A program made the translations under genes and the position numbers. Below the pieces are notes generated by a model. That model did not search any database and had not been told where the DNA came from. It worked only from the letters and a program-made list of their open reading frames with translations. A stretch of 64,000 nucleotides of DNA from Saprospiraceae bacterium (GTDB lineage: Bacteria; Bacteroidota; Bacteroidia; Chitinophagales; Saprospiraceae). Location: the NCBI GenBank assembly GCA_020628855.1, contig JAHDEL010000013.1, positions 1 to 64,000 of the forward strand, read 5' to 3'. Below are positions 33,101 to 55,042 of the stretch, piece by piece. Within the stretch, counting starts at the first letter, position 1. Each line of letters opens with the position of its first letter.

Positions 33101-35948
33101 TGGTGATTCTGCTTTATTAAATGCATCGGGAGGGAATAACTACATCTGGAATACAGGCTCTAATAATCCAACAATCACTGTAAGTTCAGGTGGAACATAT
33201 AGTGTAACAGCTACAGATCAGAATGCATGTTCTGCATCTGATCAAGCAAGCATAACTGTGAGTGAAACGATTAATGGTGGTATTCAAGTGTCAGACTCTT
33301 CTGGATCAGCAAATGATGATGGTAGATTGTGCGATGGTGAAAGTGCTGTTTTGACAGCCTTTGGAGGGAGTGCTTTTCTTTGGGAAGATGGAAGCACCAA
33401 TGCAGAAAGGACTGTTTTTTCGTCGGGTAATTATACCGTGACATTAACTAATAGCGCTGGGTGTCAAGTCAATTATACGAGTACCATTTTAGTGGATCCA
33501 TTACCGTTGGCGAACATTACAATCCTTGAAAACTCAGGGAATAGCAATTCTGATGGCCTGCTCTGTGAGGGAGATGAAGCAATTCTTCAGGCCTCTGGAG
33601 GTGTCTCCTATCAATGGGATGATGGAAGCACTAATCTCAATAGGATAGTTTCAACAGCAGGCACCTATCAAGTGACGGTATACAATGCTCAAGGATGTTC
33701 TTCAACAAGTGTAACAACCATAGATGTTATCTCTATGGTTGAATCAGATATTGAGATTGACGAAACATCTGGTGATGACTCTGATGATGGTCTATTATGT
33801 GAAGGCGATATTGCAACATTGACCGCATTAGGTGGAACTAGTTACCAATGGAATACTGGCCAAACTAATGCAAGCATCCAGGTGAGCTCAGAAGGGAATT
33901 ATACAGTTACCATCACAAACGCAAACGGCTGTACGGAAATAGAAGATTTCTACGTGCAGTATCAAACAGTACAACAATTACCAATAGTTGTACAAGAAGA
34001 GTCAGGAAATCTCTCAGATGATGGTGTACTCTGTGCAGGTGATATTGCTCAGTTAACTGCTGGTAATGGGACTTCCTATCTTTGGGATAATGGTTCCACA
34101 ACACCATCGATTTCAGTAGGAGATCAAGGAGAATATAGAGTTACAGTCACTCAGACAGGTGGTTGCTCTTATGTTGAGCAAATAGCTATTACCACTCATC
34201 CTCTCCCACAAGCTTCAATACAATACATTGATAATTCAGGACTACTGCCAAATGATGGAGAATTCTGTGCAGGAGATAATCTGACTCTCCAAGCTTCAGG
34301 CAATGGCAGTTATGAATGGAATACAGGTAACACCAGCCAGACACTCAGTGTAGACGAAAGTGGATTTTATGCTGTTACTGTAACTAGTATTGAAGGATGT
34401 CAAGCATCTGCTCAAGCACAGACTACAGAATTAAGCATTCAAGACATTGAAATAGAAATCATTGAAGAGTCTGGTAGTACAAACAATGATGGTGTATTGT
34501 GTGATGGTGCAAGTGCTAATCTAGTCATTCAAGATATTACAAATATTCAGTGGAGTACAGGTAGTAATGATTCTGCAATTGCAGTTAACTCTGCAGGCTC
34601 TTATACTGTATCTGGACTAGATTCTCAAGGTTGCGATGTAGAAGATCAGGTTACTATTTCTGTTAATTCAATCCAGTCTCCTGAGATAAGTATTTCAGAG
34701 TCAAGTGGTCTTGAAAATAATGATGGACTACTTTGTAATGGTGATACTGCATTATTATCGACTATCGGATCAAATGTTGTTTGGAGCAATGGAGCAACAA
34801 CAACAAGCATTGAAGCTAGTCAAGGAGGTGACTACAGTGTGACTGTGTCTGATAATTCTGGGTGCTCCGCAAGCTCAAACCAAATTTTGACTTATTCGGA
34901 ATTACCTGAGGTTACTGTTACAATTGAGGAAGAATCAGGTCTATTCCCAAATGACAATGTACTTTGCGATGGAGATGCTGCTACTATTACAGTAGTAACG
35001 TCAGATGAAATAGAGTGGGAGGATGGTAGCAATGTCAATACAAAAGTCTTAACAGAATCAGGAAGTTATAAAGTGAATGTCAGTAATGCGTTTGGCTGTG
35101 TTACGGAGTCTGAGGTCTCTCTTTCGACAAATGAAAATCCAGATGTAGCCATTGAGATTAATGAAAATTCTGGTGGAGTAGACAATGATGGTATTATAGA
35201 TTTTGGAGATACAGCTCTACTGAGTGCTAAAGGAGCAAACTCCTATCTCTGGGATGATGGGACAACCATAGATGTGAGGTTCGTTTCTGAAGAAGGCGAT
35301 TACAGTGTGACAGGGACAAGCATGGATGGGTGTGAAGGTGTTGATGTTGCAACAATTGTGTATTCACCAATTCTCTCTCTCTACGAAATTCAGTTGGTCG
35401 GAGAAGTACAAGGAGATTATATAGACCTGACTTGGAAAGTCACCAGCGATGATCATTTGGTAGGATATAGAATTGAAAGGAGTCTTGGTTCTGGTCAGTT
35501 TGATCAAATCGGTTATCTAGAATCTAGCTCAAGTGCCCAAGAAATGACCTATTCATTAATAGATAATGATATAGATGTTGACGCAGACTATTATTATAGG
35601 ATCAGTGCAGAAAGAATGGACGGAGAGCTATTACTAAGTAATGTCATAGCACTACAGACAGGTCCTACGTCGGTTCTGCAGAATCCACCTACACAAGTCT
35701 ATCCAAACCCAAGTGTGTCAACCTTATATTTTGAAGTAAATAATACAATTGAGAATTCGGAAGTGAGTGTTGATATTATTGATAGTTCAGGAAGAATACT
35801 AGAGAGAGGCTTCTACTTAGGTGTTGCAGAACAGCTTCAAGAGTATGAATACTTCCTTGATGTTTCAAGTTTGAATTCTGGGTTGTATATATTTAGACTG
35901 AACGTAGGACCAACCGCAAAGGACCACAAGATAATTATCCAAAAGTAG
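30171..35948 (+). CDS. Giant T9SS-secreted M43-like metalloprotease with 15 Cys repeats (family member 1)
   Basis: 1925 residues. Order: signal peptide (to about 21); family motif PPSKEQIKYTLDV (about 42-54); M43/pappalysin-type peptidase with zinc site H189-E-F-G-H193-FFNLF-H199 and Met-turn NNIMSYY (Met 269); a fibronectin type III-like domain (about 310-395); a GEVED domain with calcium-like DANQDGDFDDSNE and GEAEDY (about 405-560); 15 tandem repeats of about 78 residues (572-1733); a second FN3-like module (LTWKVTSDDHLVGYRIERS); and a type A T9SS sorting domain from VYPNPSVSTLYFEV to the end. Each repeat but the last has two Cys (LCxGD and GC). The protein is likely exposed or released at the cell surface. 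Peptidase activity is inferred from intact metal ligands. The 3' end overlaps the convergent TSUP gene by 14 bp. Confidence 0.85.
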   Translation: MRFPCSLIVLAVLSAYLGNTQVSIPIEQDFNNSHKGCAVKPPSKEQIKYTLDVIDQEALRNNGTTKLPMRLHIVRQSNGSGGVDLDWVNLNIAQLNNRLYPIGIEWYIADINYIDNSTFYDFDAMTEEEAMCGPNEQPDAANVFFVNSLNVDGVNFCGFSYYPVNMPESLRLFMRNDCMESATNGTFVHEFGHFFNLFHTHEGTENGNTHANAEHVARTGPQSNCSTKGDLLCDTNADPAGNINANCMYIDGATDIYGNTYNPPVNNIMSYYPKICGWNFTPQQYSRMNGGLSSRLAHNAYNVDGANPQNVTDPSNLTVAINTQYQVVLNWSDNASNEAGYLIERSLDGVTFEPLFLGGVGPNTTSYIDIGVLPNTMYYYRIKASNDNADHYTNVANIFSGQIYCTPTHQSDNCSAAGVGVGIQNFMLLNGTTPLIDNNSGCGGPLSIYNGIITPGNITTATSYNFSAETINSGGSYIEQNLSIWIDANQDGDFDDSNELLYQSNFTPPAPVTITGSIAIPNCALSGVTTLRVRTRYLPNGVVSEPCGFYNFGEAEDYPVNVSSSVGTNPQITVNENSGVPNDNSICDGDPATLTASGGVTYLWDNGTTNPVRVVNSGNTYTVTVTNSLGCTDTESVSIAGTVSPTATIFVSEDSGAQSNDGLLCAGDNAQLIAGGGSTFLWENNGSQAIRTVSNSGTYSLTVTTSNGCSDQTSVSLDFTSVNADISLSENSGHTPNDGNLCDGDIAELTASGGVSYLWENGSSNSVRQVTSTGTYQVTVFDAGGCSDIESINLSFTGAGSTDIVVAENSGNTSNDGQLCAGDVAQIIATGGAQYLWSTGANSNAINASESGTYTVSITTENGCVSVESLDITVKTSDQAVIDYDDASGVLADDGVICSGSDVTLIASTGQSYLWENGWTNALRTVSSAGTYNVTITDFDGCTSATSSEVSVTPLPDITISIEDTSGSSPDDGNLCNGDSALLNASGGNNYIWNTGSNNPTITVSSGGTYSVTATDQNACSASDQASITVSETINGGIQVSDSSGSANDDGRLCDGESAVLTAFGGSAFLWEDGSTNAERTVFSSGNYTVTLTNSAGCQVNYTSTILVDPLPLANITILENSGNSNSDGLLCEGDEAILQASGGVSYQWDDGSTNLNRIVSTAGTYQVTVYNAQGCSSTSVTTIDVISMVESDIEIDETSGDDSDDGLLCEGDIATLTALGGTSYQWNTGQTNASIQVSSEGNYTVTITNANGCTEIEDFYVQYQTVQQLPIVVQEESGNLSDDGVLCAGDIAQLTAGNGTSYLWDNGSTTPSISVGDQGEYRVTVTQTGGCSYVEQIAITTHPLPQASIQYIDNSGLLPNDGEFCAGDNLTLQASGNGSYEWNTGNTSQTLSVDESGFYAVTVTSIEGCQASAQAQTTELSIQDIEIEIIEESGSTNNDGVLCDGASANLVIQDITNIQWSTGSNDSAIAVNSAGSYTVSGLDSQGCDVEDQVTISVNSIQSPEISISESSGLENNDGLLCNGDTALLSTIGSNVVWSNGATTTSIEASQGGDYSVTVSDNSGCSASSNQILTYSELPEVTVTIEEESGLFPNDNVLCDGDAATITVVTSDEIEWEDGSNVNTKVLTESGSYKVNVSNAFGCVTESEVSLSTNENPDVAIEINENSGGVDNDGIIDFGDTALLSAKGANSYLWDDGTTIDVRFVSEEGDYSVTGTSMDGCEGVDVATIVYSPILSLYEIQLVGEVQGDYIDLTWKVTSDDHLVGYRIERSLGSGQFDQIGYLESSSSAQEMTYSLIDNDIDVDADYYYRISAERMDGELLLSNVIALQTGPTSVLQNPPTQVYPNPSVSTLYFEVNNTIENSEVSVDIIDSSGRILERGFYLGVAEQLQEYEYFLDVSSLNSGLYIFRLNVGPTAKDHKIIIQK
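31884..35370 (+). repeat. 15 tandem repeat units of about 78 codons
   Basis: Units follow the pattern I-x-V-x-E-x-SG-x4-NDG-x-LC-x-GD-x-A-x-L-x-A-x-GG-x-SYLW-x-NGS ... GTYTVTVT-x4-GC. They are diverged from one another (roughly one third to one half identical by eye), apart from the conserved core. The last unit has FGD in place of the CxGD motif. They are coding, not a CRISPR or intergenic repeat. Confidence 0.85.
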
Positions 35949-39680: not shown

Positions 39681-42653
39681 ATGCTAACAACTATCATTAT
39701 GGAAAATATTTTTACAACTTCAACCCAATTCGAACAACGCGTCCTAGCCATAACTCAAGTCATCGTAATCATAGGATTTCTGTTATTACTTTCGAATACA
39801 CTTCAGGCACAACAATCATGTGCGACTCCAGAACCAACAAAAGATCAAGTTAAATACACACTAGACATCATTGATAACCTTGCCGTCAATAGAAGTAGTG
39901 GTATGACATCACTTCCGATGCGAGTACATATTGTTGGTGACAATGCAGGCAATAATAGATTAGACTTGACTGATCTGAATCAAGAGCTTGCAACACTGAA
40001 TAGAAATTTTAGATCAATAAATATTGAATGGTATATAGCTTCAATTGATTACATTAATAGTACGCTCTATAGCGAACTCAACCTAGATATTGAAGAAGCA
40101 GGTTTTGTAGACAAATATGTCCAATCTGATGCAGTAAATGTGATTTTTACAAACTCACTCAGAAAGGGAGGTAATGAGTTTTGTGGTTTTGCTTATTACC
40201 CAAGTGAAGAATTAAGAAGTATCGCTATTTATGCAAATAATTCGTGTACTAACAGCTTAAGCTCTGCTAACCTAACACATGAGTTTGGTCATTTTTTCAA
40301 CCTTTTCCATACATTCAGAGGAACAGCAAATAGCCCTAGTCACGAAGAAGCAGAAAATGTAGCTAGACAAGGTGAGCACGCTAATTGCTCAACGACTGGA
40401 GACTTACTTTGTGATACTGAAGCTGACCCTCGGTGCACTATGACATCAGCTTGCGTATATGTTGGCGACGAGACAGACATCCTTGGTGCATCATATACTC
40501 CACCTATCGGGAATGTCATGACATATTATGATAAGACATGTGGAGCAGAATTCACAGGGCAGCAGTTACTAAGAATGGAACAAGCCCTAATGGCAAGATT
40601 GGCTTTTTCAAGCTATGCAATTGATCAAGCTCCAGCAATGGATGTGAGTAACCCTTTTGCACTTGAAGCTGAAGCTGGATCAGACTATAGCATTCATTTG
40701 AAGTGGAAAGATTCTGCAGCAAACGAAACAGGTTTTATTATCGAAAGATCTCATGATGGTGGAAATACATTCTTTCCATTGCTTCAAGGGGGTGTTGGAC
40801 CAGATGTTACTGAGTTCAATGATGTTACTGCACAAGCTGATATTTCTTATATCTATAGAATTAAAGCATCTAATGATAATCCTCAAGATTATACTTTGAG
40901 TAGCCCTTTCAAATTAGATCTTGCATATTGTTTGCCAGAATACAGTGAACTAACATGCAATGTATTAGGAATAGGAGCAGGTATGCAGCAAGTAGAACTA
41001 GGAATAAATGGCAGTATTTTCTCTCACAACTCAGAATGTTCAGGTGCATTTGAAATTATCACAGAAGCGCCAGAGACAGCATTAGAAGTTGGAGCTAACT
41101 ACCCATTCAATGTGCAGCTTAATACAAATAATGGTCAATACTTACAGCAGAATCTAACTATCTGGATGGACTGGAATCAAAATAATGAGTATGAACAGTC
41201 AGAGGTGCTTTTCCAAACTCACTTTACTAGCTCTGGTCCTTCACAAATTCAAGGAAACTTTAAGATTCCAGAATGTGCTCTGTCAGGTGAAACAATGATG
41301 AGATTTAGAACTACGTATTTGCCAAACGGTATCGTAAATGACCCTTGTGCCTTCTATGCATATGGCGAGGCTGAAGACTATAAAGTTCAAATTACTGGTG
41401 CTCAAGAACAAAGTGGTAACATTATCGTATCAGAGTATTCAGGTATCCAAAACAATGATGGATTTATTTGCGAAGATGGTTGGGCTAACCTCATTGCTTC
41501 ATCTGGTAAAAGTTACCTCTGGGATAACGGTTTTGATGGCCAGATTAGATCAGTATACGAGCCAGGGACCTACACGGTTGCCATTACTGGATATGATGGA
41601 TGCATTGCCTACGCCGAAGCAATAGTGCATTTACATGATGATTCAATTATTCTTTCTCAGACAGATAATGATGGAAATATCTTCAACGGAACAATGTGCG
41701 ATGGCGAAGAAATGAATCTCAGTATTGAAGGAGCTTTTGATGTGACTTGGGAGGATGGAAGTAAAATGCATACTTATACTGCTCGAGAGGCAGGTACGTA
41801 TACAGCTACAGTTATCAACCAATATGGTTGTGAAAGCACTAAATCTTTCATAGTGAATACTATAGAAGCACCAGAACTCTCTTTAGATGTTGTAAATCAA
41901 GAAGGTCAGGAAGTCTATGACGGTATGTTACTGTTCGGAGATACTGCACAATTGACAGTCAATGGAGCGGATGAATATCTTTGGAATACTGGGAGTAACG
42001 CATCCACAATTACTGCAACACAAGATGGTAATTATTCAGTAGTGGGAACTAACCAGAATGGATGCAAAGAGACAATGGAGGTCAACCTTTACTTTAATAT
42101 TATACTCTCTAATCTGGATATTAGTCTTGATGCAAAGCCTCAGACTGAAGGCACAGCATTGATTTGGACATCTACAACTGAACAAGAAGTAAACAGTTAT
42201 GTGATTCAAAAGAGTGTCGATGGTGCAAGTTTTGTAAGTATCGGTATAATTGAAGCTAAACAAGAAGAAGGTACTATCTATGAATACTATGATAATGAAG
42301 TTGCAGGAGCTACTTCATATTACAGGATTGAAGCACAATTGACTTCAGGCAATGTGGAGTATAGCGAGATTGAAGTTGTTGAAAGAGAGATATCAACAGT
42401 CTTTACAGCTGATGTCTATCCTAATCCTAGTCAAGGTATCTTGAATATCGAAATGACAGGTCTTTCTTCAAATGAAGCTCTACTTCAAGTATTTGATGAA
42501 AGAGGTGCCAATGCATATACTGCGCATCTTTCACCAGAGAATGGAAAGACAACTTTAGATCTTTCAGGATCATTGAATCCAGGAATGTATACTGTTTTGA
42601 TCTTTCAAAATGACAATAGAATTACTGAAAAAATATTGGTTACACAGCCATAG
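39681..42653 (+). CDS. T9SS-secreted M43-like metalloprotease with 3 Cys repeats (family member 2)
   Basis: 990 residues (984 if ATG 39699, MENIFTTSTQ, is used), the shortest of the four paralogues. Signal peptide with an extended n-region ending SNTLQAQ; family motif PEPTKDQVKYTLDI; M43-type zinc site HEFGHFFNLFHTF at about residue 200, with Met-turn GNVMTYY; FN3-like domain; GEVED domain ending YGEAEDYKVQI; only three repeats from residue 581, the second degenerate and the third the Cys-poor cap (LLFGDTAQL); FN3-like module; and T9SS sorting domain from DVYPNPSQGILNIEM to the end (...RITEKILVTQP). Metal ligands are intact. It shows that the catalytic part plus a minimal stalk is enough for the family. 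A strong terminator follows. Confidence 0.85.
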   Translation: MLTTIIMENIFTTSTQFEQRVLAITQVIVIIGFLLLLSNTLQAQQSCATPEPTKDQVKYTLDIIDNLAVNRSSGMTSLPMRVHIVGDNAGNNRLDLTDLNQELATLNRNFRSINIEWYIASIDYINSTLYSELNLDIEEAGFVDKYVQSDAVNVIFTNSLRKGGNEFCGFAYYPSEELRSIAIYANNSCTNSLSSANLTHEFGHFFNLFHTFRGTANSPSHEEAENVARQGEHANCSTTGDLLCDTEADPRCTMTSACVYVGDETDILGASYTPPIGNVMTYYDKTCGAEFTGQQLLRMEQALMARLAFSSYAIDQAPAMDVSNPFALEAEAGSDYSIHLKWKDSAANETGFIIERSHDGGNTFFPLLQGGVGPDVTEFNDVTAQADISYIYRIKASNDNPQDYTLSSPFKLDLAYCLPEYSELTCNVLGIGAGMQQVELGINGSIFSHNSECSGAFEIITEAPETALEVGANYPFNVQLNTNNGQYLQQNLTIWMDWNQNNEYEQSEVLFQTHFTSSGPSQIQGNFKIPECALSGETMMRFRTTYLPNGIVNDPCAFYAYGEAEDYKVQITGAQEQSGNIIVSEYSGIQNNDGFICEDGWANLIASSGKSYLWDNGFDGQIRSVYEPGTYTVAITGYDGCIAYAEAIVHLHDDSIILSQTDNDGNIFNGTMCDGEEMNLSIEGAFDVTWEDGSKMHTYTAREAGTYTATVINQYGCESTKSFIVNTIEAPELSLDVVNQEGQEVYDGMLLFGDTAQLTVNGADEYLWNTGSNASTITATQDGNYSVVGTNQNGCKETMEVNLYFNIILSNLDISLDAKPQTEGTALIWTSTTEQEVNSYVIQKSVDGASFVSIGIIEAKQEEGTIYEYYDNEVAGATSYYRIEAQLTSGNVEYSEIEVVEREISTVFTADVYPNPSQGILNIEMTGLSSNEALLQVFDERGANAYTAHLSPENGKTTLDLSGSLNPGMYTVLIFQNDNRITEKILVTQP
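41421..42100 (+). repeat. Three repeat units of about 76 codons
   Basis: Same repeat as in the neighbouring paralogues: unit 1 has ICEDGWANL, unit 2 MCDGEEMNL, unit 3 the cap form LLFGDTAQL without the first Cys. They are diverged from one another. Confidence 0.75.
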
Positions 42654-42703
42654 TTGTGCTAGCTAGAAGGAAGTAAATATTTTCCGAATCATCAATTGTT
42701 AGC

Positions 42704-42736
42704 GGGCCTTTCAAAGGTTTTGAAGGGCCCTTTTTT
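42704..42736 (+). terminator. Rho-independent terminator after family member 2
   Basis: GGGCCTTTCAAA (42704-42715) pairs with TTTGAAGGGCCC (42719-42730), 12 bp with one G-T pair and a 3-base loop, followed by six T. It isolates the 42890 gene transcriptionally from the gene before it. Confidence 0.85.
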
Positions 42737-42755
42737 ACCTCATTGAAAATTACCT

Positions 42756-42850
42756 AAAAACAAAAAACGAAGGTTTCCTACCAAAAAAGGAATAGTGCCT
42801 TTGGAAAATCGAATACTCAAATGAAACGCCCTTTTCCACATCTAGATTTG
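42756..42850 (+). promoter_or_regulatory. Promoter module of family member 3, duplicated before member 4
   Basis: AAAAACAAAAAACGAAGG at 42756, CGAATAC at 42810-42816, 26 bp, then TAGATTTG (42843-42850), an exact TAnnTTTG box. The same three elements occur at 51050-51144 with identical spacing (54 and 26 bp). Because the -7 box lies inside the longest open frame, it fixes the start downstream at ATG 42890. Confidence 0.65.
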
Positions 42851-42889
42851 AAGTGTAATAAGAACGCTAACACTCTTAATACTTCTAAA

Positions 42890-45800
42890 ATGATGACTTG
42901 GAAAATAAACTTAACTCTATTCTTATCCCTATGCTTTTCTGTGGCATTCGGACAACTTAACCTCAAAGACGCAAACTTCCACGGATGTGGATCTCCAGCT
43001 CCTACTAAAGAGCAAATCAAATACACATTGGATGTAGTTGATAATCTTACATTAACAAGGTCAGGACAAATGATTTATCTGCCAATCAGAGTACATGTTG
43101 TTACTTATAATGATGGTACTGGTGGAGTTGACCTCGGTGATGTAAATTCAGCAGTGGCCAACTTAAATCAGCAATTCGAACCAATGGATGTTGGATTCTA
43201 CATTGCAGATATTAACACTATCGCTAATTCTGCATATGCTGATCTTGATCTCACTACTGAAGAGAACGATCTCGCTTATCCAAATGTAGTCCCTGATGCG
43301 ATTAACATGTTTTTTACTGAAAGATTGACACAAGGTCCATATGACATCTGTGGTTATGCATTTTACCCAACTGATAATATTAGATCATTAAGAATCTTCG
43401 TCAGAAATGAATGTACTAATGACGCAGATAGCGGTACAATTCCGCACGAAATGGGACACTTTTTCAACCTTTTTCACACTTTCAACGGAACATCAAATGG
43501 TCCAGATCATTATAATGCTGAGAATGTGGCGAGAACAGGATCGCAAGCTAACTGTAGCACACATGGTGACTTTCTTTGCGATACTAATGCAGATCCCAGA
43601 GGATCAATTAATGGTGACTGCACCTATTTAGGAAGTGATACAGACATCTATGGACAACCTTATAGTCCTCCTATTGGTAACATGATGAGCTATTACAATA
43701 AGAACTGCGGAGCTGAATTTACACCTCAGCAGTACCAAAGAATGGCTTTGTCTTTACAAGATAGATTATCTCACACTTCTTACACTTTGACAAACCCAAT
43801 CTACTCAGATGTTGCTTATCCTACAAATGTATCAGCACAACCGGGTCAGAATTATAGTATAGACATCACATGGAATGATGTTTCGAATAATGAGACTGGA
43901 TTCATAGTTGAAAGATCTGAAGATAATGGACAGACTTTTAGTCCAATACCTGGAGGAGGTGTGGCACCAAATGTCAGCACTTTTTGTGATGAAAACATAC
44001 AATCAAATCAAGCATACAAGTACAGAGTTAAGCCTTCAAATGGTGATCCAGTTGAGTATGGTGCAAGTAATATTATCGTTGCTGATTTGACATACTGTGT
44101 TCCAGATTATCAACCAACAAGTTGTGATATACTAGATATTGGTGTTGGAATGCAACGTTTCAAGCTAGGTCAGAATCAACTAGATAACTATTCTGGTTGC
44201 GCAGTGCACTCAGTATATGATGGTCAAGTTATTCCAGTTGGTCTTAGCACTGGTGATGATCATCCTTTCACAGTTGAGTTCATCTTATCAGAAGGACAGT
44301 ATGTTGAACAAAATATAGCAATTTGGATCGATCTAAATAGAGATGGTGACTTCGATGATACAAATGAAATGGTCTATCAAAGTGACTATTTAACATTTGG
44401 CACGCAAGTCATTAATGATGTACTATCTGTTCCTGATTGTATAGAGCCTGGTCCTACCACATTAAGAGTAAGATCAAAGTATCTTCCTTATGGAAAAGTA
44501 GAAGATCCATGTGAGTTTTATCATTTTGGAGAGTCTGAAGATTATCCTGTCACGATCATTCAATCAGAATCTGACTTCGCTTCAATTAACATCCTTGAAT
44601 ATTCAGGTGATCAAGATCATGATGGACTACTTTGTACAGGAGACCAAGCTACACTTATTGCAGCTGGAGGAGTAAATTATTTGTGGGATAATGGAGCTAC
44701 TGGAGCTACCAGAATAGTATCTGAAACTGGAATCTACAGTGTCACTGTGAATGATGGAAATAATTGTTCAGCTACAGAAGTAATCGCAGTAGAGTTCAAT
44801 ACTTACCCTGAGGCTCAGATAATTATGAATGATGGATCAGGACAAACAAGCCAATGTGATGGGTCTAATGTGACATTGACTGCATCTGGAGGATTATATT
44901 ATCAGTGGGATAATGGAAGCACGCAAGCAACAAGAGTTGTCACTCAAACTGGTAATTATAGAGTTACAGTAAGTAATGGTGGCGGTTGTGAGGACATTGA
45001 AGATATCATAGTAACAATAGGACAGCCTGTCATTGCTAACATTCTTGTACTAGAAAATTCAGGACAGAACTCAAATGACGGGATCCTTTGTCAGGGTGAT
45101 GTAGCTAACTTAATGGCAAGTGGTGGACAATCCTACCTTTGGGATAATGGATCTACATCAAGTGAAAGGCAAGTTTCTACTACTGGTAACTATTCTGTTA
45201 CTGTTACAAATGCAGATGGTTGTTCAGCAATTGAGAATGTCTCAATTACTATTGGAGGTCAATTAAATACTGAAATATCAATTAGTGAAAACTCAGGAAA
45301 TTCATCAGATGATGGAAGACTATGTTATGGTGACTCAGCTCTGCTTGTAGCAAGTGGTGGACAATCCTATCTCTGGGATAATGGATCTACTTCTGCTCAG
45401 AGAACAGTTTCCACTCCTGATAATTATGCAGTAACGATTTATAATGCGGAGGGTTGTAGCCAAGTTGAAACAGTTACAATTCACGTAGAAAACAATATGA
45501 TCACAGGCTTGCAAGCTTTTGAAAATTCTGGCCAAACACCAAATGATGGTATCCTATGCTCAGGTGATGAGGCAACTTTGGTTGCAACAGGAGGCTTGAG
45601 TTATTTATGGTCAGATGGAATAACAAGCAATTCAAGAATAGTAAATGAAAGCGGTACTTATTCAGTCGAAGCATTCAATGCAGAAGGCTGTAGTAAGACA
45701 AACACTATTGATATAGTTGTCTCAAATGCAGATTTTGGTAACATTGAGGCGTTAGACAGTAATGGAAATACACTTTCTTCGCCAGCAATTTGCACAAATA

Positions 45801-48800
45801 GTTCTTTGTTGCTCAGAGCAAATGGGGGAGTAGATTATACTTGGAACACAGGAGTGACAGCTTCAGAAATTATAATTTCTAATGCTGGTACCTATACAGT
45901 AGAAATTATAGATAGCAATGGATGTAGCAATACAAAGTCTATAATAGTAGATCAAATTAATGATGATGCTACTATTGTAAGTCTAGAAGGTGTAGATCTC
46001 GATCAAATATTTTGCCCTGGTGAGTCTATAAACCTAATGGTTGCTGGTGCTCAATCTACACAATGGAATACTGGAAATGGTAACCCTGTTCTATCTGTTA
46101 ATACTGGAGGAACTTATACTGCATCTGTTGTTACATCAAATGGGTGTGTAACTACAGTGAGTACCACAATCCAATATGCAGATAGCTCTATTGCTACTAT
46201 AACAGTAGAAGATCAATCAGGAAATGTAGCAAATGATGGAATACTTTGTCAAGGAGATAATGCAATATTAATTGCTCCCAATGCTGCACAATATGCTTGG
46301 AGCACAGGTAGCAATGCACCTCAGATATCAGTCACAGAATCTGATGTGTACAGAGTGACAATTACTAATCAGCAGGGATGTACAAGCGAAGGTTCTATCT
46401 ACATTGATGTAGAGAATGCAATGAGTGCTGACATACTCGTAGCTGATAATTCAGGTAGTGATTTGAATGATGGAATTATTTGCGAAGGTGCCACTGTGAC
46501 GCTTACTGCAGTTGGAGGCAATAGCTATCTATGGTCAACAGGGAGCCAAGCTAATCAAATTACTGTATCAGAAGCTGGAAACTACTCAGTTGAAGTAATG
46601 TCAAACGCAGGATGTTCTGCTATAGCAAATACTCAAGTGACAGTGACTACAGAATTTTCATCAGAAATAGTAATAACAGATACTTCTGGCGAGTTTGCAA
46701 ATGATGGTGTATTGTGTCAAGGAGATCAAGCAACTCTAAGCATTCCAGATGAGTACCAAGTAGTTTGGGAAAATGGATTGACATCTAATACAAGAGTGGT
46801 TGATCAAGCTGGTGTCTATACTGCAAGTATTACAAATGCAAATGGTTGTTCAACACAAGCTAGTGCAACTATTCAAACTAATACAATTGCAAGTGGATCT
46901 ATCCAAGTCTCCGAAAATTCAGGAGTTGAGACTAATGATGGAGTCATTTGTTCTGGAGATCAAGCAATCCTTAGTGTGCAAGGAAACAACATACTCTGGG
47001 AAAATGGAAGTACATCTAATCAAAGGACAGTAACCGAATCAGGTATCTACACTGCCACGTTAACAAATGCATCTGGATGTGAAACAATCATTTCTACCGA
47101 AATTACTGTCACTGAATTACCTGAGCCTGCAATTGAAATTATTGAAGACTCTGGAATACAAAATAATGATGGTATCCTCTGTGCAGGTGATGAGGCTATC
47201 CTAAGAATCCAAAGTGAAAATGTCATCTGGGAGAATGGTGTAACTACTAATGAAAGAACCATAGTGGCTTCAGGTATCTATACTGCTATTGTACAGAACG
47301 CCAATGGTTGTAGTACTGAAATAAGTACTGAAGTCATTATCGAAGAGTTACCAGCAATTGCAGTTAATGTATCAGAGACATCAGGGAATACCAATAATGA
47401 TGGCATTCTTTGCGCAGGTGATATTGCATACCTCATGGTAAGTGGTGGTGAAAGTATTCTTTGGTCTGATGGTGCGAACTCGAGAGAGATTGCAGTAACT
47501 CAATCAGGTGAATATAGTGTTCAGGTATTCAGTGCAAGTGGATGTGTTACTGAAGAAACAATTGAACTTCTCTTCATAGAAGAAGCAACAACTGACTTGA
47601 ATATCATTGATAACTCAGGAGCATTTTTTAACGACGGTGTAATCTGTGCAGGTGATTATGCTAATCTGATAGCACAGAATGGTGAAGCATATCTTTGGTC
47701 AGATGGAAGTACTGATGCGCAGTTGCAAGTTGCTCAAAGTGGAACTTATACAGTTACCATCACAAATGCAAATGGTTGCGAAGAAGTACATGCTACTCAA
47801 ATAACAGTAGGTAGTGAACTTGATGCAGAGATACAAATGACTAATGCTTTTGGTCAGAATGTAGAAGGTCCAATCTGTGCAGGAGAAGGAGTTTATCTCT
47901 CACTTGGAGATAATCTTGACATTCAATGGATGGATGGGAATACGCAGAATCCGAGATATGTAACAAGTTCAGGTCTATACACAGCGACAGTATCCTCAAA
48001 TACAGGATGTTCTTCTGAAGCTGCTATAGAAGTAACAATACAAGAGAATCTTAATGCTGAGATCAATATAGTTGAGTTTTCTGGTTTGACGAATCATGAT
48101 GGTGTGCTTTGCCTAGGGGATGCAGCAACACTTACTGCTCAAGGCGGAGTGCACTATCAATGGTCCAATGGAAGCTTTGGATCTGAAATAGAAGTAACTG
48201 ATGCAGGCTTATATAGTGTGATTATCAGCGACGAAGCTGGATGTACTGCTACAACAGAAGTAGAGATTATTTATGATGCTATTCCTCAAATGAGCATAGT
48301 AACTGTGGAGACTTCTGGAGCAGAAAACAATGATGGAATTATCTGCTCAGGTGATGACGTCGTTCTTACTGTAACAGGTGGTAACACAATAAGCTGGGAA
48401 GATGGAAGTACTTTGAGAGAAAGAAAAGTAACAGAAGCTGGTTTTTACTCGGTTGAAGTATTTTCAACTCAAGGATGTAAAGTAGTAGGAGTTGTAGAAG
48501 TTGTAGTAAATAGTACTGTTGAAACAGGATTGTTAATCAATGGACAGGAGAATTTGAATACGTATGCTGGTTGCTCTAATGAAACTATTGAAGTATCAGC
48601 ATTTGGTGGAATAACTTATGTATGGAATGATGGAGTACAACAAGCTGCAAGATTCGTTGAGACTTCAGGCACATATAGTGTAGTTATCACAGACGAAAAT
48701 GGTTGCGATGCAGTCTATTCTGTAGATATCCTTATAGATCAACCCATCGAAGCTGCGATTGCTATTAACGAAACATCAGGCACTGCCAATAATGATGGTA

Positions 48801-50950
48801 TTCTCTGCTATGGTGATTCAGCAGTTATAGCAGTACAAGGTGGAACTTCTTATGAATGGAATACAGGTTCTACCAGTCCAACAATTACAGTCGAGTCAAG
48901 CGGAACTTATGTTGTAACTGTTTACAATCAAGAAGGTTGTTCGACTACTGAAGAAGTAGTCATCGAATTCAATCAATCTTCAGAATCTAGTATAGAAGTA
49001 ACAGAAACATCAGGAGTTGCTAATGATGGCATACTTTGTTATGGAGAAGTTGCAACGCTTCAAGTTGTTGGGGGAGCGAATCCTGTATGGGAAGATGGAT
49101 ACGCAGGATCAATCAGAGAGGTAACAGAAAGTGGAATCTATAGAGTAGTGACTGAAAATCAAACTGGATGTGCAACTGTGGCTGAAGTAGAAGTAGAATT
49201 TATGGATGCTATTGAGGCAAGAATAGATATCGCAGATGCTGAAGGAAATGTGCTAGAAGAGACTACATTCTGTGAAGGTGACTTTGCAACACTCACTATT
49301 GTATCTAATACAGGTATAATCTGGGAGGATGGAAGTACAGCAACCGAAAGAACGGTAAACAAATCAGGTACATACACAGCTATCTCTACAAATTCGAATG
49401 GATGTACAGAAAGCACTTCAATTAACGTGACTTTCGAATCACAACCTGAAGCTAGAATTTTGTCGAATGATCAAGAATTACCTCTTGAGGTTGCGCTGTG
49501 CTATGGCGAAACAATCGATATCATGGCACAAGGTGGATCTGAGTATAACTGGAATGATGGTAGTCAGGAAACCACTAGGACTATCAATACTGCTGGAGAA
49601 TACAGAGTAACAGTAACAAACGCTAGCGGTTGCGAAGATATAGCTACAGTGAACGTAAGTTATGAAGAAGAACTAGTTGCTACTATCATGGTGATAGATA
49701 ACTCGGGATCAGAAGACAATGATGGGATTGTTTGTGCTGGAGAGTCTGCTACATTGAGAGTTGTAGGTGGTGTTGCATTCCAATGGAATACTGGAGAAAC
49801 TAGTAATACACTTCAAGTGAATGAATCAGGTAATTATAGTGTAATTGTCACAGCTGCATCTGGTTGCACAACATCAGTGAGCCAAGAAGTAATTGTCAAT
49901 GAAGCAATAGTAAAAGGAATCATAGCGCGAGACAATGCAGGAGAAGAATTAGCACAAGCAAGTGCATGTGTTGGTGAGAAAATAACATTAGAAGCATTTG
50001 GTGGAAGTCAATACGCATGGAGTACTGGTTCAATAGATTCTGAGATAACAATTAATACTGCTGGGGAATATGCAGTGACGATTACAGATATTGGCGGATG
50101 CGAGAGCATTGAAAGTTATACTGCAACTTTTGAAGCAGTTCCTGAAATCACTTTTGATATAGTAAATCAAGATGGACAAGAAGTGTATGATGGAATCCTA
50201 GCGTTTGGAGATGTTGCTACAGTCACGGCTAGAGGAGCTGACAATTTTATTTGGAGTGATGGGACTGAAGGTGCGACAATTACAATAGCTACTGATGGAT
50301 ATTATACTGTGACCGGAAGCAATACAAATGGTTGTGAGGCACAAGGACATGTTGCACTCTATTTTTCAATCATTCTTTCTAACAACACCATCTCATTGTT
50401 TGGTGAGAGTGAAGAACAATTCAACACTCTTTCTTGGACAATGGCATCTGATATGCATCTTCAAAGCTATACACTTGAGCGTAAAGTGAATGATGATGAG
50501 TTTGAAGCAATCTATACAGTAGATGCAGAGCAAAGTGATCTTGATCCAATCTATGTTTATGAAGATGCAGACTTGCAAGAGGCTGGAGACTATTACTATA
50601 GAGTGAGAATGGAAACTATAACTGGCGCAGAGCTTAGTGAGATAATAACTCTCTTTAGAGCTGAAAGTACTCAGCTAGAAGAAAGACCAAATGTGACTGT
50701 CTTTCCAAATCCATCAACTGGACCAATTTCATTAAAGATCGAAAAGTATGATGATGCCGAATGTGCAATCAATATGATCGTAAGAAATGAAGTGGGACTA
50801 GTGGTAGCACAGGAAATCTTAGCGGGAGACCAATTTGAAGATGTAGCTACTTATACAACTGATCTTTCTCAGTTGATTCCTGGCATATACTTTATAGAGA
50901 TATTAAGATGTAATACAAAAGAAATACAAAGACTAATAATCACAGACTAA
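42890..50950 (+). CDS. Giant T9SS-secreted M43-like metalloprotease with 25 Cys repeats (family member 3)
   Basis: 2686 residues, the largest protein here. The ATG at 42890 gives a clean signal peptide (MMTWKINLTLFLSLCFSVAF, then GQ); the frame opens at 42821, but that part overlaps the promoter. Order: PAPTKEQIKYTLDV motif; peptidase with HEMGHFFNLFHTF at about 186 and Met-turn GNMMSYY; FN3-like domain; GEVED domain (DLNRDGDFDDTNE, GESEDY); 25 repeats from about 566 to 2494; FN3-like module; and sorting domain VFPNPSTGPISLKIEKYDDA ... with a Cys pair (AECAIN, LRCNTK) also found in member 4. The repeats make up over 70 percent of the protein and would form a long stalk. It should be exported by T9SS and attached or released at the surface. 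Metal ligands are intact. Confidence 0.85.
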   Translation: MMTWKINLTLFLSLCFSVAFGQLNLKDANFHGCGSPAPTKEQIKYTLDVVDNLTLTRSGQMIYLPIRVHVVTYNDGTGGVDLGDVNSAVANLNQQFEPMDVGFYIADINTIANSAYADLDLTTEENDLAYPNVVPDAINMFFTERLTQGPYDICGYAFYPTDNIRSLRIFVRNECTNDADSGTIPHEMGHFFNLFHTFNGTSNGPDHYNAENVARTGSQANCSTHGDFLCDTNADPRGSINGDCTYLGSDTDIYGQPYSPPIGNMMSYYNKNCGAEFTPQQYQRMALSLQDRLSHTSYTLTNPIYSDVAYPTNVSAQPGQNYSIDITWNDVSNNETGFIVERSEDNGQTFSPIPGGGVAPNVSTFCDENIQSNQAYKYRVKPSNGDPVEYGASNIIVADLTYCVPDYQPTSCDILDIGVGMQRFKLGQNQLDNYSGCAVHSVYDGQVIPVGLSTGDDHPFTVEFILSEGQYVEQNIAIWIDLNRDGDFDDTNEMVYQSDYLTFGTQVINDVLSVPDCIEPGPTTLRVRSKYLPYGKVEDPCEFYHFGESEDYPVTIIQSESDFASINILEYSGDQDHDGLLCTGDQATLIAAGGVNYLWDNGATGATRIVSETGIYSVTVNDGNNCSATEVIAVEFNTYPEAQIIMNDGSGQTSQCDGSNVTLTASGGLYYQWDNGSTQATRVVTQTGNYRVTVSNGGGCEDIEDIIVTIGQPVIANILVLENSGQNSNDGILCQGDVANLMASGGQSYLWDNGSTSSERQVSTTGNYSVTVTNADGCSAIENVSITIGGQLNTEISISENSGNSSDDGRLCYGDSALLVASGGQSYLWDNGSTSAQRTVSTPDNYAVTIYNAEGCSQVETVTIHVENNMITGLQAFENSGQTPNDGILCSGDEATLVATGGLSYLWSDGITSNSRIVNESGTYSVEAFNAEGCSKTNTIDIVVSNADFGNIEALDSNGNTLSSPAICTNSSLLLRANGGVDYTWNTGVTASEIIISNAGTYTVEIIDSNGCSNTKSIIVDQINDDATIVSLEGVDLDQIFCPGESINLMVAGAQSTQWNTGNGNPVLSVNTGGTYTASVVTSNGCVTTVSTTIQYADSSIATITVEDQSGNVANDGILCQGDNAILIAPNAAQYAWSTGSNAPQISVTESDVYRVTITNQQGCTSEGSIYIDVENAMSADILVADNSGSDLNDGIICEGATVTLTAVGGNSYLWSTGSQANQITVSEAGNYSVEVMSNAGCSAIANTQVTVTTEFSSEIVITDTSGEFANDGVLCQGDQATLSIPDEYQVVWENGLTSNTRVVDQAGVYTASITNANGCSTQASATIQTNTIASGSIQVSENSGVETNDGVICSGDQAILSVQGNNILWENGSTSNQRTVTESGIYTATLTNASGCETIISTEITVTELPEPAIEIIEDSGIQNNDGILCAGDEAILRIQSENVIWENGVTTNERTIVASGIYTAIVQNANGCSTEISTEVIIEELPAIAVNVSETSGNTNNDGILCAGDIAYLMVSGGESILWSDGANSREIAVTQSGEYSVQVFSASGCVTEETIELLFIEEATTDLNIIDNSGAFFNDGVICAGDYANLIAQNGEAYLWSDGSTDAQLQVAQSGTYTVTITNANGCEEVHATQITVGSELDAEIQMTNAFGQNVEGPICAGEGVYLSLGDNLDIQWMDGNTQNPRYVTSSGLYTATVSSNTGCSSEAAIEVTIQENLNAEINIVEFSGLTNHDGVLCLGDAATLTAQGGVHYQWSNGSFGSEIEVTDAGLYSVIISDEAGCTATTEVEIIYDAIPQMSIVTVETSGAENNDGIICSGDDVVLTVTGGNTISWEDGSTLRERKVTEAGFYSVEVFSTQGCKVVGVVEVVVNSTVETGLLINGQENLNTYAGCSNETIEVSAFGGITYVWNDGVQQAARFVETSGTYSVVITDENGCDAVYSVDILIDQPIEAAIAINETSGTANNDGILCYGDSAVIAVQGGTSYEWNTGSTSPTITVESSGTYVVTVYNQEGCSTTEEVVIEFNQSSESSIEVTETSGVANDGILCYGEVATLQVVGGANPVWEDGYAGSIREVTESGIYRVVTENQTGCATVAEVEVEFMDAIEARIDIADAEGNVLEETTFCEGDFATLTIVSNTGIIWEDGSTATERTVNKSGTYTAISTNSNGCTESTSINVTFESQPEARILSNDQELPLEVALCYGETIDIMAQGGSEYNWNDGSQETTRTINTAGEYRVTVTNASGCEDIATVNVSYEEELVATIMVIDNSGSEDNDGIVCAGESATLRVVGGVAFQWNTGETSNTLQVNESGNYSVIVTAASGCTTSVSQEVIVNEAIVKGIIARDNAGEELAQASACVGEKITLEAFGGSQYAWSTGSIDSEITINTAGEYAVTITDIGGCESIESYTATFEAVPEITFDIVNQDGQEVYDGILAFGDVATVTARGADNFIWSDGTEGATITIATDGYYTVTGSNTNGCEAQGHVALYFSIILSNNTISLFGESEEQFNTLSWTMASDMHLQSYTLERKVNDDEFEAIYTVDAEQSDLDPIYVYEDADLQEAGDYYYRVRMETITGAELSEIITLFRAESTQLEERPNVTVFPNPSTGPISLKIEKYDDAECAINMIVRNEVGLVVAQEILAGDQFEDVATYTTDLSQLIPGIYFIEILRCNTKEIQRLIITD
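44585..50370 (+). repeat. 25 tandem repeat units of about 77 codons
   Basis: Most units have NDGxLCxGDxATL ... SYLWDNGST ... GTYTVTVTNAxGC. Units 3 and 4 (near 45116 and 45350) are almost identical at DNA level over the ASGGQSYLWDNGSTS segment, exactly 234 bp apart, a sign of recent duplication or gene conversion. Units 2, 6, 7, 15, 18, 21, 22 and 24 vary in the NDG segment but keep both Cys. Unit 25 is the Cys-poor cap (LAFGDVATV). Confidence 0.85.
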
Positions 50951-50993
50951 GCGCTGTGTATAAAGACTATTAATATTCCAAATCATCAATTAG

Positions 50994-51029
50994 ATGGGCT
51001 TTCCTAAATGTAGGAACAGCCCATTTTTT
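50994..51029 (+). terminator. Rho-independent terminator after family member 3
   Basis: ATGGGCT (50994-51000) pairs with AGCCCAT (51018-51024), extended by TTCCTA/TAGGAA with one bulged C and a 4-base loop, followed by a run of T. The flanking ATCATCAATT also precedes the terminator at 42704, part of a duplicated intergenic module. Confidence 0.8.
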
Positions 51030-51049
51030 GCTTAATACCCAAAATTGGC

Positions 51050-51144
51050 AAAAACAAAAAACGAAGGATTCTGACCAAAAACAGAACCGCCTTTACAGAT
51101 GCTCGAATACGGCCGTGTTCAGGGGGGTATCACCAATAGATTTG
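51050..51144 (+). promoter_or_regulatory. Promoter module of family member 4, copy of the one at 42756
   Basis: AAAAACAAAAAACGAAGG at 51050, CGAATAC at 51104-51110, 26 bp, TAGATTTG at 51137-51144. Same elements and spacing as 42756-42850, with drifted sequence between them, which suggests selection on the elements. Confidence 0.65.
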
Positions 51145-51175
51145 AGGCATAATTGATGAACAACTCAAATAATTG

Positions 51176-54100
51176 ATGATGAAAATGAGAATATTAATAA
51201 CAGTTTTAACTCTATTCTTCGTAACATTTGCTAACACACAAATCGAAGGACAAACTCAACACTTTGGATGTGCTACACCTGAGCCAACAAAGGAAGAAAT
51301 TAAGTACACATTAGATGTAGTAAACCAAATCTCTGAAATGAGAAATGGAAGTACTACACATTTGCCAATTAGATTCCATGTAATCAGAAGAAATGATGGA
51401 TCAGGAGGTATAAGTACTCAAGAATTAAATAAAGCAGTAGCAACACTAAATACCTACTTCAGACCAATTGATGTAGAGTTTTTTATTGCAGACATTAATA
51501 ACATTGATGACTCAAATTACTTTGCGTTAGACTTTGACACAGAGATTGAGTCTTTATCATCACAATACCAAGTCAATGACGCTGTAAATATCTTTATGGC
51601 TGATAGACTCACAAAGAGCGGATACGAAATCTGTGGATACGCATATTACCCTTCTGAAGAAACTAAGTCATTGAGAATGTTTATGGCTAACGGTTGTACA
51701 AATGATGGTGTGAGTGCTAACTTCCCACACGAATTTGGACACTTCTTCAACTTATATCACACATTTAGAGGTACTTCCAATGGTCAAGATGATCCACATG
51801 CAGAGTGTGTACCTAGAACAGGACAATACTCTAACTGTGAAACCCATGGAGACCTTATCTGCGATACAGAAGCAGACCCAAGAGGGTATGTAAACAGTAG
51901 CTGTAATTATATAGGTTCTGAAACAGACCTTTACGGACACCCATTCACTCCTCCAGTAGGAAATATCATGACATACTATTCTAAAAAGTGTGGAGCTGAA
52001 TTTACACAAGGCCAGTATAATAGAATGCACCAAGGCTTAACAATGAGATTGAGCTACAATACATATGATGTAGATGGCGCTTCTTACGCTGATGTGAACA
52101 ACCCATCAGAGCTTACTGCTCAAGTTGGCGAAGATTATACAATCCAGCTAAACTGGAAAGATAATTCAACTAACGAAACAGGATTTTTGATTGAAAGATC
52201 TGAAGATAATGGTAAGACTTATACTCCAATTATGTATGGAGGTGCTGGTGTAGATCAGACAACTTATCATGACACTGATGTAGAATCAAATAAGTCTTAC
52301 ACATACAGAATCAAGGCATCGAATGACAACCCTAATGACTATACAAATGCCACTGAAGTAACTTCAGACCTGACGTACTGTTTACCACAGTATCAAGAAA
52401 ATAGCTGTAGCCTATTAGACGTAGGAGCTGGAATGCAGAGAGTGCAAATTGGAACTACACTTGATAATGTTTCATCTTGTGATGGTTCGTATACTGTCTA
52501 TGTACAAGATGTAGCTCCGGCACAAATGACTACTGGTGAGAGTACACCATTCTCAATTGAGCTTATGAAAGTAGGTGGGAATCACGTTCCACAGAATGTA
52601 ACAATTTGGGCTGACCTTGATCAAGATGGAGAATTTGAAGGAGGAAAGGAAATGCTATTTAAGTCAGACTTTGGATTCAACGGTCCAGCTACTGTAACAG
52701 GTAACATTACCATACCAGCTTGTACAACTGAAGGGATTACGACTCTAAGAATCAGAACACTCTACCTTCCAATGGGTATCGTTGATGATCCATGTAGACT
52801 CTATCACTTCGGAGAAGCAGAAGATTATGCAATCGAAGTTATCGAAGGTGAGCCTACATTTGGTTCGATCACAATGGAAGAAACTTCTGGAAGTCAAGCG
52901 AATGATGGTGTAATTTGTGCAGGTGCTCAGGTACAATTGAGAGCAAAGGGTGGTGTGAATTACTTCTGGGATAATGGAAGCATGAATCCACTTAGAACTG
53001 TACAAAGTGCTGGAACATATACAGTGACTGTTTTAGATGGCAGTGGTTGCGAAGATGTGGAGAGCGTAACGATCACAGAAAGTAACTCTCTTGAAGGTTC
53101 TCTAACAATAGAAAATGATGGCCAGACACTGTGTGAAGGCATGGAAGCTACATTACTGGCTGAAGGAGGAGACTTCTACTTCTGGGATAATGGAAGTTCA
53201 CTACCATACAGAACAGTAACTGTTGCTGGTGATTATGCAGTAACGATTTCTGATCTGGGAGGATGTCAAACAGTTGAGACTATTACTGTAAATTTTGCTA
53301 CAGCAGATGCTTCTTACCTAAATCTAGTTGAGACTTCTGGTAATCAAAATAATGATGGAAAGATGTGTGCCGGAGATATGGCAACCTTAACTGCGGAAGG
53401 TGGCATTGACTACATCTGGTCAGATGGAAGTACTGCTGCTACTAGAACTGTAACGGAAGCAGGAACTTACACTGTAACAATAACAAATACACAAGGCTGC
53501 TCAACTACAGAGAGTGTTACACTTGAAGTAAATGAGATAGCTGATGCAAGAATATTTGCGAATGGTGAGACTATTCAAGGCGATCTCGAACTCTGTTATG
53601 GAGAATCAGTTGTTCTTTCAACAGATGGAGAGGGTGTTACTTGGGAGAACGGTAGTCAAGAACTACAAAGAACAGTGAGTGCAAGTGGACTTTATACAGT
53701 ATCAGTTCAAAATGCAGAAGGATGCATTAGCGAAACTGCTGTGAATGTAACTGTAAGAGACCAAGTAAGTGCAGAGATTACAGTGTTTGATTCATCAGGA
53801 GATTTTGTTAATGATGGAATCGCATGCCAAGGAGAAGATGTAATCTTAAGAGTCACTGGTGGTGTAAGCTATATCTGGGATAATGGTGCTACTAGCTCTG
53901 GAAGAACAGTAACTACTTCTGGAACATATGGTGTAGTCGTAACTGATGACTTAGGTTGTACTGCTTACACAAGCTATGACATCATCGTCAGTGAGATAGA
54001 AACTCCAGTTATTGCAGTAATCGAGGATTCTGGAACCAGAGCGAACGATGGCGAATTTTGCCAGGGTGAAGCTGTCGAGCTTCAAGTTATCACAACTGAT

Positions 54101-55042
54101 AATATCACTTGGGAAAATGGTTCAACTGCATCAACAAGATTAGTGAATACAGGTGGGTATTACACTGTTGAAACTACAAACACACACGGTTGCAAAGCAG
54201 AAGCTAGTATCAATTTGACAGAAATCGCAACACAAGAAGTTGAAATCTCAGTAGATAACTTGAATGATCCTGAACTTACATTCTTACAGTATGGTGATGA
54301 AGCAATCTTGACTACAAATGCAGTTGGAGACTTTGTGTGGAATACTGGAGAGGAAACAGAACAAATCATCACTGATAAAGAAGGTCTTTACTCAGTAGTA
54401 GTAACTGACGAAAACTTATGTAGCTCTGAAGCTTATACTTATGTAGCTTTTTCACTTATTCTTTCACTAGAAGGTTTAGAACTAACAGTCGAGCAAAATG
54501 ACAACGCACATAACATTGCATGGACTGTACCTTCTGACGAGAATATCGCAAACTATGCAGTACAGAGAAAAATCAATGATGGAGATTTTGAGACTATTCA
54601 CATTGAAGAATCTTTGAGAAGTTCACTTGATCCTTATTATTCAATCGAGGATGCAGATATTAGTGAGATTGGAACTTTCTACTATAGAATCATGACTACT
54701 GATTATACTGGAGCTGAGGATTATAGTGATGTTGTAGTTGTAGAGGTAGAAATGACTGATGAGCAAGAAGTGGTGGCTAATGATATGAAAGTATATCCTA
54801 ACCCGACTCAAGGTCTATTCAAAATAGATCTTACAAAGTATGATGATGCTGCATGTTCTATCAACTTAACAGTGGCTAATGAAATGGGAAGAGTGGTTTA
54901 TCAAGAAGTTCTAGCTGGAGACCAATACGAAGAAACAAGTACATACACTGTTGATTTAACAGGAGCTACTCCAGGAGTATATTTTGTTGAAGTACAAAGA
55001 TGCGCAGGAAAGTCAATCGAAAGATTGGTGATCACTGACTAA
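51176..55042 (+). CDS. T9SS-secreted M43-like metalloprotease with 7 Cys repeats (family member 4)
   Basis: 1288 residues from ATG 51176 (ATG 51179 also possible; the frame's first TTG is at 51173). Signal peptide MMKMRILITVLTLFFVTFAN; PEPTKEEIKYTLDV motif; zinc site HEFGHFFNLYHTF at about 185 with Met-turn GNIMTYY; FN3-like domain; GEVED domain (DLDQDGEFEGGKE, GEAEDY); seven repeats from about 565; FN3-like module; and sorting domain VYPNPTQGLFKIDLTKYDDA to the end (...IERLVITD). The sorting domain is very close to that of member 3 (shared YDDA, AGDQ, Cys pair, LVITD/LIITD end), so 3 and 4 are the most recent duplicates. It is followed by a strong terminator. Metal ligands are intact, so an active secreted peptidase is inferred. 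Confidence 0.85.
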   Translation: MMKMRILITVLTLFFVTFANTQIEGQTQHFGCATPEPTKEEIKYTLDVVNQISEMRNGSTTHLPIRFHVIRRNDGSGGISTQELNKAVATLNTYFRPIDVEFFIADINNIDDSNYFALDFDTEIESLSSQYQVNDAVNIFMADRLTKSGYEICGYAYYPSEETKSLRMFMANGCTNDGVSANFPHEFGHFFNLYHTFRGTSNGQDDPHAECVPRTGQYSNCETHGDLICDTEADPRGYVNSSCNYIGSETDLYGHPFTPPVGNIMTYYSKKCGAEFTQGQYNRMHQGLTMRLSYNTYDVDGASYADVNNPSELTAQVGEDYTIQLNWKDNSTNETGFLIERSEDNGKTYTPIMYGGAGVDQTTYHDTDVESNKSYTYRIKASNDNPNDYTNATEVTSDLTYCLPQYQENSCSLLDVGAGMQRVQIGTTLDNVSSCDGSYTVYVQDVAPAQMTTGESTPFSIELMKVGGNHVPQNVTIWADLDQDGEFEGGKEMLFKSDFGFNGPATVTGNITIPACTTEGITTLRIRTLYLPMGIVDDPCRLYHFGEAEDYAIEVIEGEPTFGSITMEETSGSQANDGVICAGAQVQLRAKGGVNYFWDNGSMNPLRTVQSAGTYTVTVLDGSGCEDVESVTITESNSLEGSLTIENDGQTLCEGMEATLLAEGGDFYFWDNGSSLPYRTVTVAGDYAVTISDLGGCQTVETITVNFATADASYLNLVETSGNQNNDGKMCAGDMATLTAEGGIDYIWSDGSTAATRTVTEAGTYTVTITNTQGCSTTESVTLEVNEIADARIFANGETIQGDLELCYGESVVLSTDGEGVTWENGSQELQRTVSASGLYTVSVQNAEGCISETAVNVTVRDQVSAEITVFDSSGDFVNDGIACQGEDVILRVTGGVSYIWDNGATSSGRTVTTSGTYGVVVTDDLGCTAYTSYDIIVSEIETPVIAVIEDSGTRANDGEFCQGEAVELQVITTDNITWENGSTASTRLVNTGGYYTVETTNTHGCKAEASINLTEIATQEVEISVDNLNDPELTFLQYGDEAILTTNAVGDFVWNTGEETEQIITDKEGLYSVVVTDENLCSSEAYTYVAFSLILSLEGLELTVEQNDNAHNIAWTVPSDENIANYAVQRKINDGDFETIHIEESLRSSLDPYYSIEDADISEIGTFYYRIMTTDYTGAEDYSDVVVVEVEMTDEQEVVANDMKVYPNPTQGLFKIDLTKYDDAACSINLTVANEMGRVVYQEVLAGDQYEETSTYTVDLTGATPGVYFVEVQRCAGKSIERLVITD
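52868..54456 (+). repeat. Seven tandem repeat units of about 76 codons
   Basis: Same unit as in the three paralogues. Unit 2 has a shortened N-terminal strand (ENDGQTLCEG) and unit 4 a variant one, but Cys pairs are kept in units 1-6. Unit 7 is the cap (FLQYGDEAIL) and lacks the first Cys. Confidence 0.8.

Follow-up and report, generated by a model that had tools for sequence, protein, structure and literature searches.

The intergenic regions preceding two of the four M43-GEVED protease genes in the analyzed DNA (a stretch of 64,000 nucleotides from a Saprospiraceae bacterium, referred to as the window) share a module that is probably an activator site for a LytTR response regulator linked to H-NOX, which would place both proteases in the regulon of this protein. 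All four genes are located on the forward strand. Member 1 (30171..35948) shares 46% identity with member 4, and member 2 (39681..42653) was assigned to the family on the basis of Pfam matches. Members 3 (42890..50950; Pfam and ORF list) and 4 (51179..55042; Pfam) encode M43 metalloproteases with GEVED and a T9SS sorting tail, and member 3 additionally has a long repeat region. Its product (~2686 aa) is composed mostly of tandem Ig-like repeats of ~234 bp (78 aa) and is far longer than members 2 and 4. A listed in-frame start of member 3 (42821) falls upstream of the predicted promoter box, while a further in-frame ATG of member 4 is present at 51176.

For the Saprospiraceae, which are abundant and mostly uncultured, this analysis provides an operator defined precisely enough to be searched for, together with a candidate regulator and a signal that can be tested. 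Gas sensing would be connected with secreted proteases and with polysaccharide of the cell surface, and an odd pair of similar gaps would lead to a regulon predictable genome by genome.

Anatomy of the paired modules

The sequence-only reading had described an A-rich block, the heptamer CGAATAC and a promoter box in both gaps, and all of its coordinates were exact. The A-rich blocks begin at 42756 and 51050, CGAATAC at 42810 and 51104, and TAGATTTG at 42843 and 51137, with a common offset of 8294 for the three pairs within the window. The sequence ATCATCAATT is also present once per gap (42688 and 50982), and an ungapped 105-bp alignment of the two gaps contains long identical blocks.

CGAATAC had been regarded as an element in its own right; instead, it closes a third 21-bp repeat that is in phase with two direct repeats, 21 bp apart, contained in the A-rich block (ACAAAAAACGAA and CCAAAAAAGGAA in copy A, preceding member 3). 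The A-rich block and CGAATAC are half-sites 1–2 and 3 of a single 21-bp direct-repeat array with the consensus ACCAAAAANCGAA. In copy A the half-sites occupy positions 42760..42771, 42781..42792 and 42802..42813 of the forward strand (GAA at 42769-71, 42790-92 and 42811-13); the third, TGGAAAATCGAA, whose end corresponds to CGAATAC, was assigned from the array phase and alignment with orthologs. Copy B, on the same strand, consists of ACAAAAAACGAA (51054..51065), CCAAAAACAGAA (51075..51086) and CAGATGCTCGAA (51096..51107), with GAA at 51063-65, 51084-86 and 51105-07. Its third half-site is badly degenerate except for CGAATAC and was recognized by alignment with orthologs. Each array is followed on the forward strand by a sigma-A type −7 box, TAGATTTG, at 42843..42850 in copy A, where TTTG begins 33 nt past the last GAA, and at 51137..51144 in copy B, as identified from the window sequence and the array spacing.

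The pattern CGAATAC-N26-TAGATTTG, for which a genome-wide search had been proposed, has exactly two matches in the 3.43-Mb genome, namely those in the two gaps, and none in the reversed control. By itself, TAGATTTG occurs in the window at chance level (7 found vs 4.9 expected), so only the complete geometry is informative. The 57 matches of the full pattern in viral contigs were judged to be at chance level for 15 fixed bases. The claim that members 1 and 2 lack the module, and would thus not be under its control, agrees with the family model, which scored only the two known places in the window and found no array upstream of either gene; the model was trained with window sites, and model R1 and the search patterns were partly built from them, so the window scores are not independent evidence for these two sites.

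Folding energies bear out the strong terminator noted in each gap: −18.7 kcal/mol (z −3.2, followed by a T run) for the predicted intrinsic terminator of member 2 (42704..42737, forward strand) and −19.5 kcal/mol (z −4.4) for that of member 3 (50992..51029, forward strand). These strong hairpins would be expected if the module were a structured RNA leader or riboswitch, but they resemble terminators of the preceding genes, and an Rfam scan of the window gave no match. Moreover, the repeats lie upstream of the −7 box and the predicted start, and their base conservation follows a 21-bp DNA periodicity. If the −7 box occupies −12 to −5, transcription would begin near 42855 and 51149, leaving a leader of only ~30-35 nt. 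Together, these observations make an RNA element highly improbable. A shared activator or leader structure had been suggested previously; the leader is thus disfavoured, while the array geometry and the co-location with a regulator gene described below argue for the activator.

Recurrence of the array and its distance to the promoter

A search for the A-rich tandem repeat, as had been recommended, revealed a third strict copy in the same genome (C52:82367), preceding an operon that encodes a receiver protein, a FIST (NosP-like) protein and a hybrid kinase. Weaker copies are located at C52:88543, C45:30961 and C38:134127. The arrays of contigs C52 and C45 have three repeats each, whereas the C38 copy, which precedes genes for a 144-aa protein and a T9SS cargo protein, was treated as uncertain because it has two repeats and no clear −7 box. 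The best genome-wide matches to the 21-bp array have no counterpart in reversed controls.

The gene cluster is also present in the sister species G002, in which arrays 8299 bp apart precede the member 3 and member 4 orthologs and no array lies ahead of the member 2 ortholog. In a four-way alignment, in which the pairing was judged by eye, the sequence past the −7 box groups the two member 3 copies together, and likewise the two member 4 copies. The duplication thus seems to predate the split of the two species. The idea of a duplicated transcription unit with selected regulatory elements gains support from this comparison, as the sequence between the blocks has diverged while the blocks and their spacing are kept in G002, a result that also answers the test of conservation in close relatives attached to the sequence-only reading. 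It could be argued that, since members 3 and 4 are paralogs whose upstream regions align, the shared blocks are leftovers of a recent duplication devoid of selected function. However, blocks and spacing persist in four orthologous or paralogous copies from two species despite the divergence between them, and throughout the Saprospiraceae the module is also present in front of unrelated genes; because of the latter, we regard the duplication-only explanation as already refuted.

The array-plus-promoter anatomy recurs across the family. Screening of 721 kb of related sequence by repeat score alone yielded 68 arrays (vs 10 in the reversed control), each with two to four half-sites at a 21-bp period. 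TTTG starts 33 nt downstream of the last GAA in 34 of the 68 arrays and 32 nt downstream of it in nine, and no other offset occurs more than four times. The same preference was found among the 33 arrays from regions selected without regard to the promoter, where TTTG begins at 33 nt in 13 cases and at 32 nt in six, compared with 0.23 per other offset. Alignment of 38 sites gives (A)CCAAAAANCGAA at 21-bp steps (reverse complement of the half-site, TTCGNTTTTTGG), then 29 bp and TAnnTTTG, whose unselected T and A reach 57% (C in the remainder) and 92%, respectively. The 26 bp noted earlier represent this same spacing (TAC + 26 + TAGA = 33). For the array on C52, TAGATGTG had been considered as the promoter and was abandoned in favour of TTACTTTA, because the 33-nt spacing is constant.

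Sigma-A promoters of Bacteroidota usually include a −33 TTG element. None is conserved at the expected distance in the 38 aligned sites, and its absence is read as a sign of activator dependence. TAnnTTTG corresponds to the sigma-A −7 box of Flavobacterium psychrophilum, located at −12 to −5 (PMC9723704); with this numbering, the last GAA would lie at about −42, upstream of −35. Each module is probably an activator-dependent promoter, in which three in-phase half-sites, spaced by two helical turns, would cover about −95 to −42 and the −7 box would follow at a fixed distance.

A distinct arrangement was observed in genome G017, where divergent array pairs lie ~100 bp apart on opposite strands (L148 5809-6046 and L149 9975-10213), with TTTG at 33 nt in only one array of each pair. 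This genome also contains near-identical genes for a small secreted protein in several copies (L148 6116; L149 10282 and 4749), two of which have near-identical array promoters.

The candidate regulator and its gene neighbourhood

As activator, the strongest candidate is a LytTR response regulator (PF04397, E 2.7e-20) whose gene lies on contig C52 of the window's genome. The gene order there is H-NOX, a hybrid kinase (HK-REC-Hpt), the LytTR regulator, MbnP, two MauG-type cytochromes and MauE, followed by an array, genes for a receiver, a FIST protein and a kinase, and a TPR gene with another array; the matching locus of G002 is nearly identical. The genes for MbnP, the two di-heme cytochromes and MauE, which has a heavy-metal domain (L063 2445-6334), are thus enclosed between the regulator and an array-controlled operon. 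No array precedes the regulator's own operon in the window's genome, while in G021, G150, G223 and G270 an array immediately precedes the regulator gene.

Of 248 Saprospiraceae genomes, 72 have an ortholog of this regulator and 176 have none detected; arrays are present in 39 of the former and 16 of the latter (Fisher 1e-13, a value that overstates independence because arrays and regulator share ancestry). Co-location is independent of the shared-ancestry assumption: 38 of 74 arrays lie within 15 kb of a regulator ortholog, where 0.4 would be expected. Three previously unused Saprospiraceae neighbourhoods contained three arrays, and 1.3 Mb of sequence around 72 distant LytTR genes contained two, neither with a promoter (three in the reversed control).

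The array might nevertheless be a genuine activator site of another regulator, a LytTR paralog or an AraC-type protein, with the H-NOX locus merely one of its targets. AraC-type proteins can also use direct half-sites spaced by 21 bp, so this spacing by itself does not identify the protein family. The window's genome has ~18 LytTR-like matches that could share specificity, and arrays occur in some genomes with no detected ortholog, although several of these 16 cases resemble chance matches in coding sequences; genome G094 has a perfect array and no detected ortholog, which is present in its genus-mate G186. Against this, more than half of the aforementioned 74 arrays lie within 15 kb of this one ortholog, often next to it or immediately upstream. 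In G017, with at least 48 LytTR-like matches, the best match is far ahead of its paralogs and lies on the same contig, 9 kb from the perfect array of that genome. Furthermore, in the examined neighbourhoods of arrays and regulators, no recurrent protein other than the LytTR regulator has a recognized DNA-binding domain. We therefore regard another regulator as unlikely.

The array resembles LytTR-type operators in its repeat spacing, its position upstream of −35 and its association with a LytTR-domain protein. Such operators are direct repeats (9-11 bp, with 10-13 bp spacers) about two turns apart, three of which are used by RcoM and CoxC, and most LytTR proteins bind upstream of −35 and activate transcription (PMC11347149). 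Repression or a dual function has a precedent in CoxC, a LytTR protein with three direct repeats that acts as a repressor (PMC11347149), but the CoxC repeats overlap −35, while the arrays described here stop at about −42 and the −33 element is missing, as expected for activation; a repressor site accordingly appears quite improbable. In the favoured explanation, i.e. activation by the C52 protein, copies of the phosphorylated regulator would sit next to each other on the same face of the DNA and recruit RNA polymerase.

Predicted signal, targets and related systems

The putative sensor contains an HNOB domain (PF07700, E 6.1e-43) and can be aligned over its full length to H-NOX proteins of solved structure. 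Its His104, Pro117, Tyr133, Ser135 and Arg137 (the heme histidine and the YxSxR motif among them) are invariant in six aligned orthologs, and the HK-REC-Hpt kinase gene is directly downstream. H-NOX adjoins the regulator in 22 of 32 neighbourhoods and is absent there in about a third; G001 and G003, of the same genus, have none beside the regulator, which indicates that the input has been exchanged in places. Since the module is family-wide and clustered around a regulator gene that usually lies beside H-NOX, members 3 and 4 probably belong to a gas-sensing surface regulon.

The sequences themselves show the array, its fixed spacing and conservation, the wider set of sites and their co-location with the regulator. 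We infer binding by the C52 regulator, activation, and nitric oxide as the signal, which when bound to H-NOX would alter kinase activity and, in turn, protease expression. In known systems NO-bound H-NOX inhibits the kinase (PMC6769237). Should the same apply here, and should the regulator be an activator, protease expression would fall in response to nitric oxide; this direction is our guess.

Among the genes directly behind arrays are those for a TPR protein, a STAS protein (with a Wzx-type flippase and a glycosyltransferase), a GlmS-like enzyme, a polysaccharide epimerase, T9SS cargo and receiver proteins. Their shared theme is the cell surface and secretion, including exopolysaccharide genes.

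The operators of RcoM1 and CoxC (PMC11347149) likewise comprise a direct-repeat triplet about two turns apart at the promoter, recognized by a LytTR DNA-binding domain in diatomic-gas signalling. However, these proteobacterial proteins are one-component sensors of carbon monoxide, and their repeats read TTCNNGCA or TTNNNGCN, in contrast to the candidate phosphorelay response regulator with a separate H-NOX, the half-site CCAAAAANCGAA and the fixed spacing to a Bacteroidota −7 box found here. LytTR response regulators such as YpdB and AgrA (PMC4847170, PMC11347149) also activate, usually from sites upstream of −35 in which direct repeats of 9-11 bp are separated by 11-13 bp, but use two repeats rather than three (sometimes four). 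As in our proposal, H-NOX and NosP of vibrios and Shewanella lie beside a kinase feeding a phosphorelay, which in those bacteria controls biofilm and social behaviour (PMC6769237). Their outputs are c-di-GMP enzymes or LuxU/LuxO, whereas the output predicted here is a LytTR regulator with targets including exopolysaccharide genes and T9SS cargo. The three-repeat LytTR operator is therefore already known from RcoM and CoxC, while the family-wide module and its targets appear to be new: no description of the system was found in the titles and abstracts of non-subscription papers that combine H-NOX with LytTR or Bacteroidetes, LytTR with type IX secretion, or Saprospiraceae with nitric oxide.

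Tentatively, and with somewhat more doubt than confidence, we propose a Saprospiraceae-wide NO phosphorelay, in which H-NOX (in the window's genome also a NosP-like FIST protein) would act through one LytTR regulator on a rigid three-repeat promoter to switch exopolysaccharide genes, giant T9SS metalloproteases and, in some species, tandem small RNAs, as an independently reached counterpart of the vibrio LuxO-Qrr system.

Some arrays are followed by ORF-free DNA of ~110-180 nt and then a terminator. One such region of the window's genome (G000:C52:88522-88734; L063 12523-12735), comprising an array with a promoter, ~110 nt and a strong terminator, points away from the TPR gene and has a candidate small RNA at C52:88613-88734. 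DNA searches with this candidate reached no other genome at the search threshold, and Rfam scans of two candidate small-RNA regions gave sub-threshold matches only. Its counterpart in G002 (L091 1560-1712, minus strand) aligns by position, with the first ~48 nt well conserved. In genome G141 (C26; L207 8150-9740), five tandem units of ~285 bp are located directly downstream of the LytTR regulator. Each unit has its own array, promoter and terminator with no obvious gene, and they are candidate multi-copy small RNAs.
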